IMG/VR virus record: IMGVR_UViG_3300034073_000893
Coordinates: 1-22,016 of that record
Strand: one strand, 5' to 3'
Length of the DNA stretch: 22,016 nucleotides
Origin: a virus
Shown: piece by piece, positions 4,845 through 19,616 of the stretch
Layout: each line of letters starts with the position of its first letter
Numbering within the stretch: position 1 is the first letter of the stretch
Program-made: the position numbers and the translations under genes
Notes under the pieces: model-generated
What the model was told of the DNA's origin: nothing
Database searches by the model: none
The model's input: only the letters and a program-made list of their open reading frames with translations

Positions 4845-5705
4845 TCAAGTATCAGGAAAGTTCTTTCTGACACCATAGTGCTCAAAACAAGCGTCATCGT
4901 AGGCTCTCGCAGCGGCTTCCTCAGAAACGAAACGTTTCTGCAACACTATTAGACCCTCTTTGTTCAGACGTGCCACCCACTTCTCTCTTGCAGCATCCCA
5001 ATACACTCCAATATATTTTGAAGTACAATCTTCTATTTTACGTCTATTGAAGTTCTGGATTGTGGTGGTGGTCCAGCGGCAATTCTCTTTACAATAGTTG
5101 CCATTAACATCTATGCGGTCTAGTGACATGCCGTCGGGGCGTTCTCCCATGTCTGCGTAAAAAGCCTCAAAAGATTCCCAAGAAGAGTCATAAGAAATCC
5201 CCCTACCGCCATAGTTTTCATACGCCGGAGATAGAGGATTTCGACAACGTTCTTTCATGGATTGCCACGAACTGTATTCCGGTGTTCCAGACATTCCATG
5301 TTTTTGTTTAAGAAGAGCTGCAGATTCTTTCTGGATACAACCACAAGATTGCGTATGTCCACTTTTTAAATTTTTATAAGGGAACTCCTTGATACCACTA
5401 CCACAGGAACAACTGGCAAGTACTCTGCGTTTATTCTTCAACACCCCCAGGTCTTGCACAATTGTCAGTCTACCAAAAACTTCTCCCACAGTTACATCCG
5501 TCTTGAGCTTGACTGCTGCTTTTATCTGCAAACATCCACAAGATTTGGTAGGATTCTTTGTCTTAGTGAGAGATACGCATCGGTATTCTCTCTCACCAGA
5601 GCCACAAGAGCAAGTACACATAACAAAGTACGGATACTGCGTTGGGTCTCGTTTGAACCTAGCAGACACCACAGTCAGTTCGCCAAATTTATCACCTACC
5701 TCCAT
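4845..5705 (-). CDS. HNH homing endonuclease with AP2 DNA-binding domain
   Basis: 286 residues from the ATG at 5705. The order is two related zinc-ribbon-like repeats (about residues 5-60 and 74-124), each 'G..FG.LTV/I...C.CGSG......SCGC', then an HNH nuclease (about 136-222; YSSWQSMKERCRNP, YGGRGISY, SLDRIDVNGNY, NCRW), then an AP2/ERF-type DNA-binding domain (about 229-286; YIGVYWDAAREKW, AARAYD). Such free-standing enzymes cut intron- or gene-less alleles and spread their own gene. A longer open frame reaches 5780, but a consensus promoter lies inside that extension and GGAGG sits five bases before 5705, so 5705 is the real start. The gene is wedged between sheath and tube genes that normally adjoin. 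Confidence 0.92.
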   Translation of the reverse strand: MEVGDKFGELTVVSARFKRDPTQYPYFVMCTCSCGSGEREYRCVSLTKTKNPTKSCGCLQIKAAVKLKTDVTVGEVFGRLTIVQDLGVLKNKRRVLASCSCGSGIKEFPYKNLKSGHTQSCGCIQKESAALLKQKHGMSGTPEYSSWQSMKERCRNPLSPAYENYGGRGISYDSSWESFEAFYADMGERPDGMSLDRIDVNGNYCKENCRWTTTTIQNFNRRKIEDCTSKYIGVYWDAAREKWVARLNKEGLIVLQKRFVSEEAAARAYDDACFEHYGVRKNFPDT

Positions 5706-5732
5706 AATTACCTCCATTAAGTTGAAAGCATA

Positions 5733-5761
5733 ATCATAGCATAGGGTCTGTCGCTTGTCAA
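5733..5761 (-). promoter_or_regulatory. Consensus sigma70 promoter of the HNH-AP2 gene
   Basis: On the minus strand TTGACA (5761-5756), 17 bases, then TATGAT (5738-5733), with TGC just before the -10 giving an extended -10. The expected transcript start is near 5726, about 20 bases upstream of the ATG at 5705. It lies in the short gap after the sheath stop codon (5777). Confidence 0.85.
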
Positions 5762-5776
5762 CTGTTAGAGCTACTG

Positions 5777-6856
5777 TCAATAACTCACGGTCGCGCGCAC
5801 AACTACGGAGCCCGTGGAGCCCTGCATCCTATACGAAACCTTAAAGTCCCCTAGAATACGATTAGCACGCTGTACTTCAGGGATAGACAAAACATCTGGA
5901 GAAATTACAGTGGGTGCGGGGGCATCGGCAATAAAGCCATTTGCAATACCTTGAGCATTAACACTGCGAATTTCAGCTTCCACGATCAACGCTCCGGTCT
6001 GGGTCATGGGCAACTTTTTCTTAGTAGCTAGGCGGTAGAATACTTGTTCTTGAACACGGGCTGTCCACCAGTCAATACCAATAATGTCCGCAATTTGCGT
6101 ACCTTCAGAACTCCAACCTCTACGGAAGATGTTAATGCCAGCCACTTTGATAAAGTAGTTTACATGTTTTGCGTCAAGTGCAGAGATTTGAGTTTGCGTC
6201 AGCTTGCTAACTTGTACACCAGAAGCACCCTTAAAGTCCCAAGTATTAGAGCCAGGGACTTCTGCAATCTGACCACCCATCCAGCCGATTTCAGGGTGGT
6301 TTATGGCTGCTTCAGGGTGGTACACCAGTACAACTCGGTCATAGCTACCATCCGCAAGGAAAGAGCCAATATCATTTGTCACAGCAGGATTAGGAACGTC
6401 AGAGTCTGCTGTAGAAGCTACAAAGATTTTCTTCAAAGCTTGAATAACAGCAGCAACTTCCTTAATATCGCCTTCTACCTTGGAATCAATACCAATTGCA
6501 TACCACTCGTCGTTATATGCTAGGATAGCCTGCAAACCTTGGGTGTAAGTCTCTGTAGAATTCTTCACGCCAATCATGAACGAAGCTGGACGAATGTCGT
6601 TACCAAGCAGCTTTTGAGCCATCTTATAAGCTTCGCTGGTAGTGCCAAAATCGTCGCCAACGGCAGTAAGACCCGTATACTCACGAACACGCAAAGTAAC
6701 GTCAGCAGGGACAGTTACGGGACTCATTGGGTCTGTATTGTCGATAGTGTCTGGAAGATTCACCATCAACAGAGGGATGTCAAAAGAAGCAGTATCAATC
6801 TGTGCAGTTTCACGAGATACATAAACCTCTACAATTTGACTAATATCATCAGCCAT
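5777..6856 (-). CDS. Tail sheath protein (DUF3383 type)
   Basis: 359 residues that should polymerise as the contractile sheath around the tail tube. The N-terminus MADDISQIVEVYVSRET and the segments GWMGGQIAEVPGSNTW (about 193-208), NIFRRGWSSEGTQIADIIG (about 242-260) and DWWTARVQEQVFYRL (about 262-276) match the pattern of DUF3383 sheath-like proteins. Those replace the classic sheath family in a group of proteobacterial myoviruses. The length is typical. It lies downstream of the tail terminator and upstream of the tube genes, and it ends just before a promoter that serves the inserted homing endonuclease. Confidence 0.9.
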   Translation of the reverse strand: MADDISQIVEVYVSRETAQIDTASFDIPLLMVNLPDTIDNTDPMSPVTVPADVTLRVREYTGLTAVGDDFGTTSEAYKMAQKLLGNDIRPASFMIGVKNSTETYTQGLQAILAYNDEWYAIGIDSKVEGDIKEVAAVIQALKKIFVASTADSDVPNPAVTNDIGSFLADGSYDRVVLVYHPEAAINHPEIGWMGGQIAEVPGSNTWDFKGASGVQVSKLTQTQISALDAKHVNYFIKVAGINIFRRGWSSEGTQIADIIGIDWWTARVQEQVFYRLATKKKLPMTQTGALIVEAEIRSVNAQGIANGFIADAPAPTVISPDVLSIPEVQRANRILGDFKVSYRMQGSTGSVVVRATVSY

Positions 6857-13617: not shown

Positions 13618-16107
13618 TTAGAGAGAAACAACTTTAGGTTCTCCAATTGCTTGTTGAAAATTTTGAATACTTCCGAGGAAGTTTGGTAGAATCTGTTTAG
13701 ATGCTAGGTAAGCGAAACAATCCGAAACGCAGTCAACAAGATCATCGTGTCCTGTCTCACCTCTTCTTCTTTGCCCATCGAAGGCTTCAAGCTCCCTATA
13801 GAAGAAGTTGTTATCTCCTCGAATATTATTATCTAAATCGTGAGCACAATTCTTTAAGAACTTTATTCCGCCGTTTTGAGCCATTGAGGAGGCTGGTCTA
13901 AATCTGTCAAGTTTCGACGTTGAAGCCCTCATTTTCTGTGCATACAACCCTGATTCCGCTAAATCTCTGATTAACAGAGTACATGCTGCCGCTGCCGCTG
14001 GGTTAGGGTCGCTTGGAATAAGAATATCCACATTTCTATGGAGTTCTTTATCTTCCATAGCATTGTCTATGATAAACTTCTGCCATTCCCCGAATCTTAT
14101 TCTAGTCCTCTTAGCGTCCAAGATAAGATAATCTCCATTCCGCATCTTTGCCATCTTAACAGTTGCCGTATAATCGGGGCTTGGATTGCTATCACTTTTT
14201 AAAGTTCCGGCAAAGTCATATGCTCTAACTATCTTAACAATCTGTGATTCATCATAACTAGACAACTCTTCACACCAACTTCTTTGAAAGAATGATGAGC
14301 TTTCGGGTCTTGCTTCCCAATTCCCAAACAACAGAATCTCTCGCTCTACACGAGGCAGTCCGTTTAGAAATGCAATGTAAGAAGGTTGAATGTATGGATT
14401 ATCATATACCGAGGCACTAATGAATCTGAAAGAGAGAGGAATATCGTTAGGATATTTTTCTTCCAACTCCTCTTTAGTATCCGCCCAAATAAGTCCATCA
14501 CTTGTTCTTATGAACCACCGGATGACTCCTTGTTTAGAAGGATCAGGTCTTCCATGATTTTCATGACCTTCTGGAAACAAATACCAGTCCACGTACTGTC
14601 TGACCCAGCTATCGGGATCGGGGTTCATAGTTGCCCGCATATTGGGCTTCATGTTAGCTTTTGTACGTAAACGAGACAGAATATAGTTAAACTGACTCTC
14701 TTCAAACTGACACAATTCCTCCATTACGCAGGAAGAAATTTGAGCACCTTGGAAGTTTCGAGTATCTTCTACTCTCTCAAAGTGGGAAAACGCCACTTCA
14801 GCACCACTACTAAACTGGTACTTTAAATCTTTAATCTTAATCCTACCACCGGGATCAATATCGGTGTAGATTGTTTTACTTTCGTCCCACACAGCCCCTG
14901 ATTTAAGTAACATAGGAGTTGTTCTACGCAATGTAAGCCCACGATATAGAGGGTCGTGAGTATATTTCAAGTGGTGCATAAGACCTGCAAAAGTGTTGTG
15001 GGTTACTACAAAATCGGTAGTAACAAACAATCTATCTCCTGTTACAGAAATGCATGTAGCTTCACCTTTACCTGCACACTCAATACTCTCAATTCGATTC
15101 CCAACATCTTTTTTAACTGTACGAGATTTTTTACGAGGTAGTCTGAATAGTTCTGTTTGATTTTTACCACGAATATAGAGTACGTAGGCATCCTTACATA
15201 CTACCTTTTCACCATCCTTATTGTAGAACGTTTTCTTGAAAGTTGTGGTTACTGTAAACCCAAGACTTCTGAGAATTTCGGTAACATCAGAGGCTAAAGA
15301 ATTACTTACTGTACAGAAATATGTTTTACCGTCTTTTGAGACATATCCGTCTGAGTCCATTAGACCTTGGATAAGGGAAAACCTATCTTCAATACTTGCT
15401 GTAAAATAATCTTGTGGAATAAATTTATCATGACTCTTTTTCATATATAAGTCATATCCGATAACCGAATCTTTTACTCCGTCAACTCTATAGGAAATCC
15501 CTCCAGAGCTTTCCCACACAACAGTAGCATACCCATCATCGTTAACACTCTGAATAATCTCCTGATCTGTAGTTGTCAGAGATATGCAATCTCCTCGGAA
15601 ACAACCATCTCCAAGCAAAAGACCCATAGTGTACGGTTTGATCTTCAGTGCTACCTTTTCACCAAATTCCAAAGGTTCTGATAACTGCACAATCGGTAAA
15701 TATTTTCTACCTGATTTCAAGTTTTGTCTGTCAATATATTCTTTAATCTCGATAGTAGTTTGAACAAGTTTCTTACCATCCTGACCAGCTTTATGAAACT
15801 TCCAAAGATGCTGTCCACAGCATTTTACTTTTCTACCGTCTTGGAAAATAACTTCATAAATATCGACTTCGCCTTGTGGGAATACCCCTGTGATATACTG
15901 GACAGAGTTATCTGGTGCCACAATTTCTTGACCAATCTCACAACTTTCGATATTGACAAACCCCCTTGGAGTCAACACCTTCTCACCATGGAGGAGTGCT
16001 TTTCCGCCACCTGCTTGTCCACCGTAGAAACAAATATCTACCCAATCTGGAGTTGTAAGAAACATCTCCTGTGGTTTGGAGGCTGGTGCGTATACTTTAC
16101 GACTCAT
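13618..16107 (-). CDS. Terminase large subunit precursor containing an intein
   Basis: 829-residue precursor; 494 residues remain if residues 37-371 splice out. The spliced protein is the DNA-packaging motor. Walker A is rebuilt as GGQAGGGK (29-36) joined to TFAGL (372 on). Walker B is CVMEEL (460-465), with Met-Glu-Glu in place of the common Asp-Glu. The coupling motif is ATMNPDPDSW (492-501). The RNase H-like nuclease has Asp631 in RAYDFAG, an IPSDPN segment (697-702) and GHDDLVD (786-792). The gene has its own upstream promoter (16162-16190), and a Shine-Dalgarno-like AAGGG lies eight bases before the ATG. Packaging should depend on splicing because the intein breaks the P-loop. Confidence 0.93.
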   Translation of the reverse strand: MSRKVYAPASKPQEMFLTTPDWVDICFYGGQAGGGKALLHGEKVLTPRGFVNIESCEIGQEIVAPDNSVQYITGVFPQGEVDIYEVIFQDGRKVKCCGQHLWKFHKAGQDGKKLVQTTIEIKEYIDRQNLKSGRKYLPIVQLSEPLEFGEKVALKIKPYTMGLLLGDGCFRGDCISLTTTDQEIIQSVNDDGYATVVWESSGGISYRVDGVKDSVIGYDLYMKKSHDKFIPQDYFTASIEDRFSLIQGLMDSDGYVSKDGKTYFCTVSNSLASDVTEILRSLGFTVTTTFKKTFYNKDGEKVVCKDAYVLYIRGKNQTELFRLPRKKSRTVKKDVGNRIESIECAGKGEATCISVTGDRLFVTTDFVVTHNTFAGLMHHLKYTHDPLYRGLTLRRTTPMLLKSGAVWDESKTIYTDIDPGGRIKIKDLKYQFSSGAEVAFSHFERVEDTRNFQGAQISSCVMEELCQFEESQFNYILSRLRTKANMKPNMRATMNPDPDSWVRQYVDWYLFPEGHENHGRPDPSKQGVIRWFIRTSDGLIWADTKEELEEKYPNDIPLSFRFISASVYDNPYIQPSYIAFLNGLPRVEREILLFGNWEARPESSSFFQRSWCEELSSYDESQIVKIVRAYDFAGTLKSDSNPSPDYTATVKMAKMRNGDYLILDAKRTRIRFGEWQKFIIDNAMEDKELHRNVDILIPSDPNPAAAAACTLLIRDLAESGLYAQKMRASTSKLDRFRPASSMAQNGGIKFLKNCAHDLDNNIRGDNNFFYRELEAFDGQRRRGETGHDDLVDCVSDCFAYLASKQILPNFLGSIQNFQQAIGEPKVVSL
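14995..15999 (-). mobile_element. Intein with LAGLIDADG homing endonuclease, class 3-type
   Basis: Residues 37-371 (335 residues) of the terminase precursor. It starts with Ala37 rather than Cys or Ser and ends His370-Asn371, followed by extein Thr372. The block B region reads CCGQHLWKF, giving His100 and Trp102. Block F has Cys352 in GEATCISVTGDRLF, and block G has Thr369 in VVTHN. Ala at position 1 together with this Trp-Cys-Thr set is the hallmark of class 3 inteins. These splice through the internal block F cysteine. The endonuclease has two dodecapeptide motifs, TMGLLLGDG (160-168, Asp167) and IQGLMDSDG (246-254, Asp253). Both acidic residues are present, so it looks able to home. Confidence 0.9.
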
Positions 16108-16608: not shown

Positions 16609-17007
16609 TAAAGCTCCGCGAAGGAGCTTATTGAAATTAATCCCGCTTACCATCCTGCGGGGCTATTCTTTAGCGATAGCGGATTAATAAAAGCTGTACA
16701 TTTGAATCACGGACTAATGTACAAATGCCGGGGAAGTTACAAATAATTATTCTTTCTGATAGTTGGCGCTATTCAGTCTAAGTAATTTGGTAGCGTATAA
16801 CTTCCCACCTTAGCCGTAAGTTTTGGTCCTAAGGCTTATTAGATTTCAAGGGCAGGTACTGAACTCCTGCATGATCCTACTAAGATTAGCAATGTCTTAA
16901 TACTCTCCGAGACACACCCAGCCTCTATCAGAGTTGCAAGCTATTTGCGGTAGCTTTTCTCTGGTCATATCAGCCTATGCATTCCTTGAAAAATCTGCAA
17001 TTTTCAA
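16609..17007 (-). ncRNA. Hairpin-dense non-coding stretch, candidate structured RNA
   Basis: About 400 bases with no convincing gene. Successive inverted repeats fill it: 16611-16617/16623-16629 (7 bp), 16642-16646/16657-16661 (5), 16662-16666/16676-16680 (5), 16695-16702/16716-16723 (8), 16731-16739/16798-16806 (9, enclosing 16767-16771/16791-16795), 16808-16813/16829-16834 (6), 16852-16856/16866-16870 (5), 16938-16943/16951-16956 (6, with an outer AGAG/CTCT) and 16986-16992/17001-17007 (7). No tRNA fold or promoter was found inside. A 23-residue frame starts at about 16966 (MTREKLP..), with poor Shine-Dalgarno support. The function is unknown: leader, processed small RNA or remnant. Confidence 0.4.
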
Positions 17008-18432: not shown

Positions 18433-18508
18433 TGGAGCAGACGATCGGAATTGAACCGACAACCACTGATGTGGAAAAACAGCGCTCTGCCAATTGAGCT
18501 ACATCTGC
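18433..18508 (-). tRNA. tRNA-Gly (anticodon UCC)
   Basis: Folds by hand on the minus strand. Acceptor GCAGATG/CGTCTGC has one G-U pair, and TA follows at positions 8-9. The D stem is GCTC/GAGC, the anticodon stem CTGTT/ATCAG with one T-T mismatch, the loop TTTCCAC giving anticodon TCC, a 5-base variable loop, and the T arm GTCGG/CCGAT with loop TTCAATT. CCA is encoded. The anticodon-stem mismatch slightly lowers confidence in full activity. It reads GGA codons. Confidence 0.85.
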
Positions 18509-19459: not shown

Positions 19460-19536
19460 TGGTGGGCGGCGAGGAATTCGAATCCCCATAGTTCGAGGTA
19501 GAAGCTCGATTCATTGTCCAGTTATGATAGCCGCCC
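19460..19536 (-). tRNA. tRNA-Arg (anticodon UCU)
   Basis: On the minus strand: acceptor GGGCGGC/GCCGCCC (7 bp), TA at 8-9, D stem TCAT/ATGA, anticodon stem TCGAG/CTCGA with loop CTTCTAC giving anticodon TCT, variable loop ACTAT, and T arm GGGGA/TCCTC with loop TTCGAAT. Discriminator A and encoded CCA follow. All stems are intact. It reads AGA, a codon that is rare in many gammaproteobacteria. Confidence 0.93.
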
Positions 19537-19541
19537 AAAAC

Positions 19542-19616
19542 TGGTATGGCGTGTTGGTTTCGATCCAACTACCAAAGTCTTATGAGGACTCCACTCTCCC
19601 ATTGAGTTAACGCCAC
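19542..19616 (-). tRNA. tRNA-Met (anticodon CAU)
   Basis: On the minus strand: acceptor GTGGCGT/ACGCCAT (one G-U), TA at 8-9, D stem ACTC/GAGT, anticodon stem GAGTC/GACTT with loop CTCATAA giving CAT, variable loop TGGTA, and T stem GTTGG/CCAAC with loop ATCGAAA. Discriminator A and encoded CCA follow. The T-loop starts with A instead of T. It could be elongator Met or an Ile tRNA with modified C34; sequence alone does not settle this. Only 5 bases separate it from tRNA-Arg. Confidence 0.9.

Follow-up and report, generated by a model that had tools for sequence, protein, structure and literature searches.

The DNA analysed here, a 22,016-base stretch referred to as the window, is the complete IMG/VR record of a tailed phage and probably represents a genome fragment. 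Its head, portal and tail-sheath genes all lie on the minus strand. The same strand carries a large terminase gene (position 13618 to 16107), an ORF for an 829-aa precursor that matches Terminase_6N, Terminase_6C and phrog_979 (E-value = 2e-151). Directly after the tail-sheath gene is a gene (4845-5780, minus strand; phrog_374, E-value = 6e-75) for a free-standing endonuclease of the HNH type, the C-terminal domain of which is AP2-like and scores slightly below the Pfam AP2 cut-off. Genes for tRNA Gly(tcc) (18433-18508), Arg(tct) (19460-19536) and Met(cat) (19542-19616) are also found on the minus strand. A gap of about 350 bases between coding regions (16654-17003) contains no listed ORF of 80 aa or more and no Rfam match at the gathering threshold.

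The terminase precursor is interrupted by a 335-aa intein (14995 to 15999, minus strand) of class 3 type with a LAGLIDADG endonuclease, as recognised from intein-free alleles, a family alignment and an AlphaFold model. It occupies precursor residues 37 to 371, in-frame between the lysine and the threonine of the Walker A motif, and separates a 36-aa N-extein ending in FYGGQAGGGK (Walker A; 16000 to 16107, minus strand) from a 458-aa C-extein starting with TFAGLM (13621 to 14994, minus strand). The junctions read GGQAGGGK/ALLHGEK... and ...DFVVTHN/TFAGLM. Given the base composition of the window, a 335-codon open stretch would arise by chance at P ≈ 4e-12, and stops number 16 and 34 in the two remaining frames across the insert, which is therefore not a chance open frame. 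An earlier reading of this DNA from its letters (hereafter the sequence-only reading) had given these coordinates and residue numbers, the cut after the P-loop lysine and the length of 335 residues, all of which proved exact on recheck. It had also named a product of 494 residues; the 494 residues left after removal keep the Walker B-like CVMEEL, the C-motif MNPD and the nuclease motifs, the terminase being otherwise intact. As is usual for inteins, taking out the in-frame insertion gives back a conserved host protein, as seen from ten uninterrupted alleles with the identical junction (below). Judging from these motifs, the 494-residue spliced product should be a functional terminase. The first C-extein residue, Thr372 (+1), completes the Walker A motif and is expected to be the second branch point.

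A search of viral contigs with the C-extein yielded ten intein-free terminases (L006-L015), 59-66% identical, all of which (10/10) read uninterrupted across the site (...ICFYGGQAGGGK/T, then W or F). These alleles, continuous at GGQAGGGK/T, fix both splice junctions to the residue and make alanine position 1 of the intein; they thus confirm the earlier statement that the insert starts with Ala and ends with His-Asn. Being missing from the nearest terminase relatives, the insert shows a patchy occupancy of its site. The joined flanks of the window differ from the intein-free alleles at 12-18 of 48 bases, and a pattern search found no empty copy of the insertion site elsewhere in the window. When genome contigs were scanned with the C-extein, one 39% relative was obtained, in a Bacteroidota metagenome bin.

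Class 3 inteins have no nucleophile at position 1 and exhibit Trp at B:12, Cys at F:4 and Thr at G:5, usually with Ser or Thr at +1 (PMC5222942, PMC5050341); the biochemistry of their branch points has been reported (PMC5222942, PMC4031507). The insert exhibits every sequence feature by which class 3 is recognised. Position 1 is alanine rather than Cys, Ser or Thr, the triad is provided by Trp66, Cys316 and Thr333, and Thr372 occupies +1, where nearly all members have Ser or Thr. The features expected of inteins in general, namely blocks A, B, F and G, a C-terminal His-Asn and a Cys, Ser or Thr at +1, were all identified. Intein residues His64/Trp66, Cys316 and Thr333-His334-Asn335 correspond to precursor residues His100/Trp102, Cys352 and Thr369-His370-Asn371. 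Alignment of precursor residues 37-371 places Trp102 in block B, Cys352 in block F and Thr369 in block G, and the class 3 type proposed in the sequence-only reading (Ala1, Trp B:12, Cys F:4, Thr G:5) is upheld by alignment to about 90 relatives and to solved class 3 inteins. Among 93 aligned inteins, His64 of block B (15808-15810, minus strand) is His in all 93, Trp66 at block B position 12 (15802 to 15804, minus strand) is Trp in 92, and Cys316 at block F position 4 (15052 to 15054, minus strand), the predicted initiating nucleophile, is invariant (93/93). Thr333-His334-Asn335 at block G positions 5-7 (14995 to 15003, minus strand) reads THN in 93/93, a count partly built in, as the ends of the inteins in the contig set were selected by THN. 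Alignment of the window intein with 14 other phage inteins likewise gives invariant His-x-Trp, Cys and Thr-His-Asn columns. An intein profile matched the solved class 3 inteins 6rix, 6riy and 6bs8 with E-values of 3e-18 to 3e-19, and PI-SceI with an E-value of 2e-21.

It seems scarcely tenable that the insert belongs to class 1 or class 2 and has the Trp-Cys-Thr combination by coincidence. The class 1 gp41-1 intein, a top PDB match, resembles it in block B and likewise has Thr-His-Asn (PMC12245125). However, the ten empty alleles set position 1 of the window intein as Ala, which rules out class 1 with its Cys, Ser or Thr at that position. Class 2 inteins, reported to be confined to KlbA orthologs, have Cys at +1 and Ser at G:6 (PMC4031507), whereas the window intein has Thr and His, respectively; these residues and the terminase host rule out class 2. 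Furthermore, the block F residue is Cys in the window intein, in contrast to Asp in classes 1 and 2.

Inside the insert, the Pfam LAGLIDADG_3 and Hom_end domains score well over their curated cut-offs. The two motifs with acidic residues that characterise LAGLIDADG endonucleases are both present. Asp131 is at the catalytic position of the first motif (GLLLGDG; 15607 to 15609, minus strand), where the aligned inteins have D in 89, N in 3 and E in 1 of 93; Asp217 is at that of the second (GLMDSDG; 15349 to 15351, minus strand), with D in 92/93. The GLMDSDG motif aligns with GLIDSDG of PI-SceI. Both aspartates, reported as intact in the sequence-only reading, do lie in the LAGLIDADG aspartate columns. 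An AlphaFold model of the intein is confident across its full length (pLDDT 95.5, pTM 0.93), and the predicted fold is of the hedgehog/intein (HINT) type. In a Foldseek search with this model, the best PDB matches were PI-SceI and other endonuclease-bearing inteins, and the splicing part matched the class 3 DnaB inteins 6riy, 6rix and 6bs8.

A decaying element, with a dead endonuclease and splicing kept, or with splicing lost, is an unlikely description of the window intein. Such decay occurs in the family, four relatives (L004, L068, L070 and L094) having lost one LAGLIDADG Asp, and no near-identical copy of the window intein was found elsewhere. Against this, the window intein keeps both Asp residues, its reading frame and all splicing residues, and was modelled at high confidence in its entirety.

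We consider it nearly certain that the insert is a full-length intein of class 3 that carries a LAGLIDADG homing endonuclease and sits inside the Walker A loop of the phage's large terminase, the most conserved site of this packaging-motor gene. Its anatomy, junctions and signature residues, the predicted fold, the intact frame and motifs, and the patchy site occupancy are directly established. By analogy with studied relatives, the intein would be capable of splicing in the following order of steps, and its nuclease would be active and the element mobile. Cys316 of block F would attack the Lys36-Ala37 bond, giving the first branched intermediate, after which the N-extein would be transferred to Thr372 (+1). 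Asn371 would then cyclise, assisted by His370, and ligation of the exteins would yield the 494-aa terminase, its P-loop intact. For homing, the endonuclease would cleave terminase alleles that lack the intein, at those same conserved codons.

Earlier work has described both mycobacteriophage terminase inteins at the Lys/Thr position of the P-loop and class 3 inteins of terminases (PMC5050341). Five terminase inteins, some of them class 3, spliced quickly, and cutting of intein-free alleles was seen for two (PMC5050341). The mycobacteriophage TerL class 3 inteins resemble the window intein in having no position 1 nucleophile, Trp at B:12, Cys at F:4 and Thr at G:5 (PMC5050341), as well as a LAGLIDADG endonuclease and a terminase host. 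At the published site TerL1-a an intein lies between Lys and Thr of the P-loop (PMC5050341), as in the window. In contrast, the mycobacteriophage TerL proteins are from another terminase family and phage group, and sequence identity is low, with matches in the 25-30% range. The nearest in sequence of those found, at 40% identity across the intein, is an intein in a "terminase large subunit" of the Salmonella jumbo phage SPLA3 (OR413581), which shares the GK/T insertion point and the signature residues, but the extein of which has no match to the window C-extein. The most similar intein-bearing terminase found is the large terminase of Acinetobacter phage TaPaz (MZ043613), a homologue annotated as intein-containing; its C-extein is 34% identical, and the insertion point is again GK/T. 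The TaPaz intein is merely 31% identical to the window intein, so that the two need not stem from one insertion. The mycobacterial DnaB-1 class 3 mini-inteins (6bs8, 6rix, 6riy) share the splicing fold, the Trp-Cys-Thr triad and the P-loop insertion, but unlike the window intein they have no endonuclease domain. PI-SceI, the yeast VMA intein, is the best structural match and has the same architecture of splicing and LAGLIDADG domains; it splices by the class 1 route from Cys1, whereas the window intein is of class 3 type.

The sequence-only reading suggested that splicing could act as a switch on packaging. Its premise stands to the extent that a precursor with an interrupted ATP-binding loop should be inactive; the switch itself is speculation. 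A post-translational switch, in which delayed or conditional (for example redox-dependent) splicing would time packaging, appears quite improbable. A class 3 P-loop intein of mycobacterial DnaB is redox-responsive via a Cys pair, a lock in which another Cys takes part (PMC6195587), and the window intein has a second cysteine, Cys61 at B:7, expected near the splice junction. However, previously assayed terminase inteins spliced fast (PMC5050341), ten close terminase relatives work without any intein, and we identified neither a regulatory partner nor a conserved control element. The window gives no hint that splicing is conditionally controlled. DnaB class 3 inteins, as exemplified by M. smegmatis DnaBi1, have Asp at B:7 (PMC6195587), whereas the window intein has Cys; we counted this departure against the class 3 reading. 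Among the collected inteins Cys is the commonest residue at B:7 (34/93), the position changing about 15 times on the tree, and 51/90 have Cys at B:6. A still slightly less probable proposal is that Cys61, expected near Cys316, forms a disulfide bond with it and renders terminase splicing redox-dependent. If true, a frequent subset of phage class 3 inteins, Cys being at B:7 in about one third of those collected, would possess an inbuilt thiol lock on DNA packaging or helicase activity.

The class 3 intein of the window has numerous relatives. Its description as a member of the rarest class is not borne out: class 2 is narrower, being reported from KlbA orthologs only (PMC4031507), and 779 phage records match the window intein at an E-value of 1e-3 or better, these being matches and not verified class 3 inteins. 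A scan of viral contigs with an alignment profile confirmed at least 580 matching stretches, again not verified as class 3; a single-sequence search of viral contigs with the window intein returned zero relatives. The residues preceding the intein are ...GK in 15/15 of the first aligned set and in 64 of the 79 contig inteins, and Thr or Ser is at +1 in 78 of the 79 contig inteins examined. The proteins carrying related inteins include terminases and several annotated as helicases. Inteins like that of the window are thus common in phages, and the present copy is a further example of a well-described type. It is fairly divergent, with at most 40% identity to known inteins, and no intein nearer than about 40% identity was found. 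The intein tree, which contains no class 1 outgroup, is weakly supported near the window intein (17 of 90 inner branches are starred, none of them enclosing it), and therefore no donor lineage is claimed.

More distant relatives of this terminase harbour group I introns (Rfam RF00028, 59-71 bits) in the P-loop codons, at positions 2713-2955 in L016, 2729-2955 in both L018 and L019, and 2693-2955 in L020. The introns are located between ...YGG and AMGGGK/S, which places them about 18 bp upstream from the insertion point of the intein. The terminase of L017, a sister of the intron-bearing ones, is uninterrupted. In L016 and L018 a long ORF, resembling an HNH-type endonuclease by eye, directly precedes the intron-bearing terminase gene. 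The presence of introns and an intein near the same P-loop codons indicates that splicing elements acting at the RNA and the protein level share a short stretch of this gene family.

The window intein and the wider set leave the known picture of inteins unchanged. In the wider set, inteins of class 3 type prove common among phages and strongly linked to P-loop GK/T or GK/S junctions, and B:7 is often Cys. The window contributes one more class 3 intein, full-length and apparently intact, from a terminase lineage of which the ten nearest relatives are empty. Together with these empty relatives, it provides a clean donor/recipient pair for splicing and homing tests.
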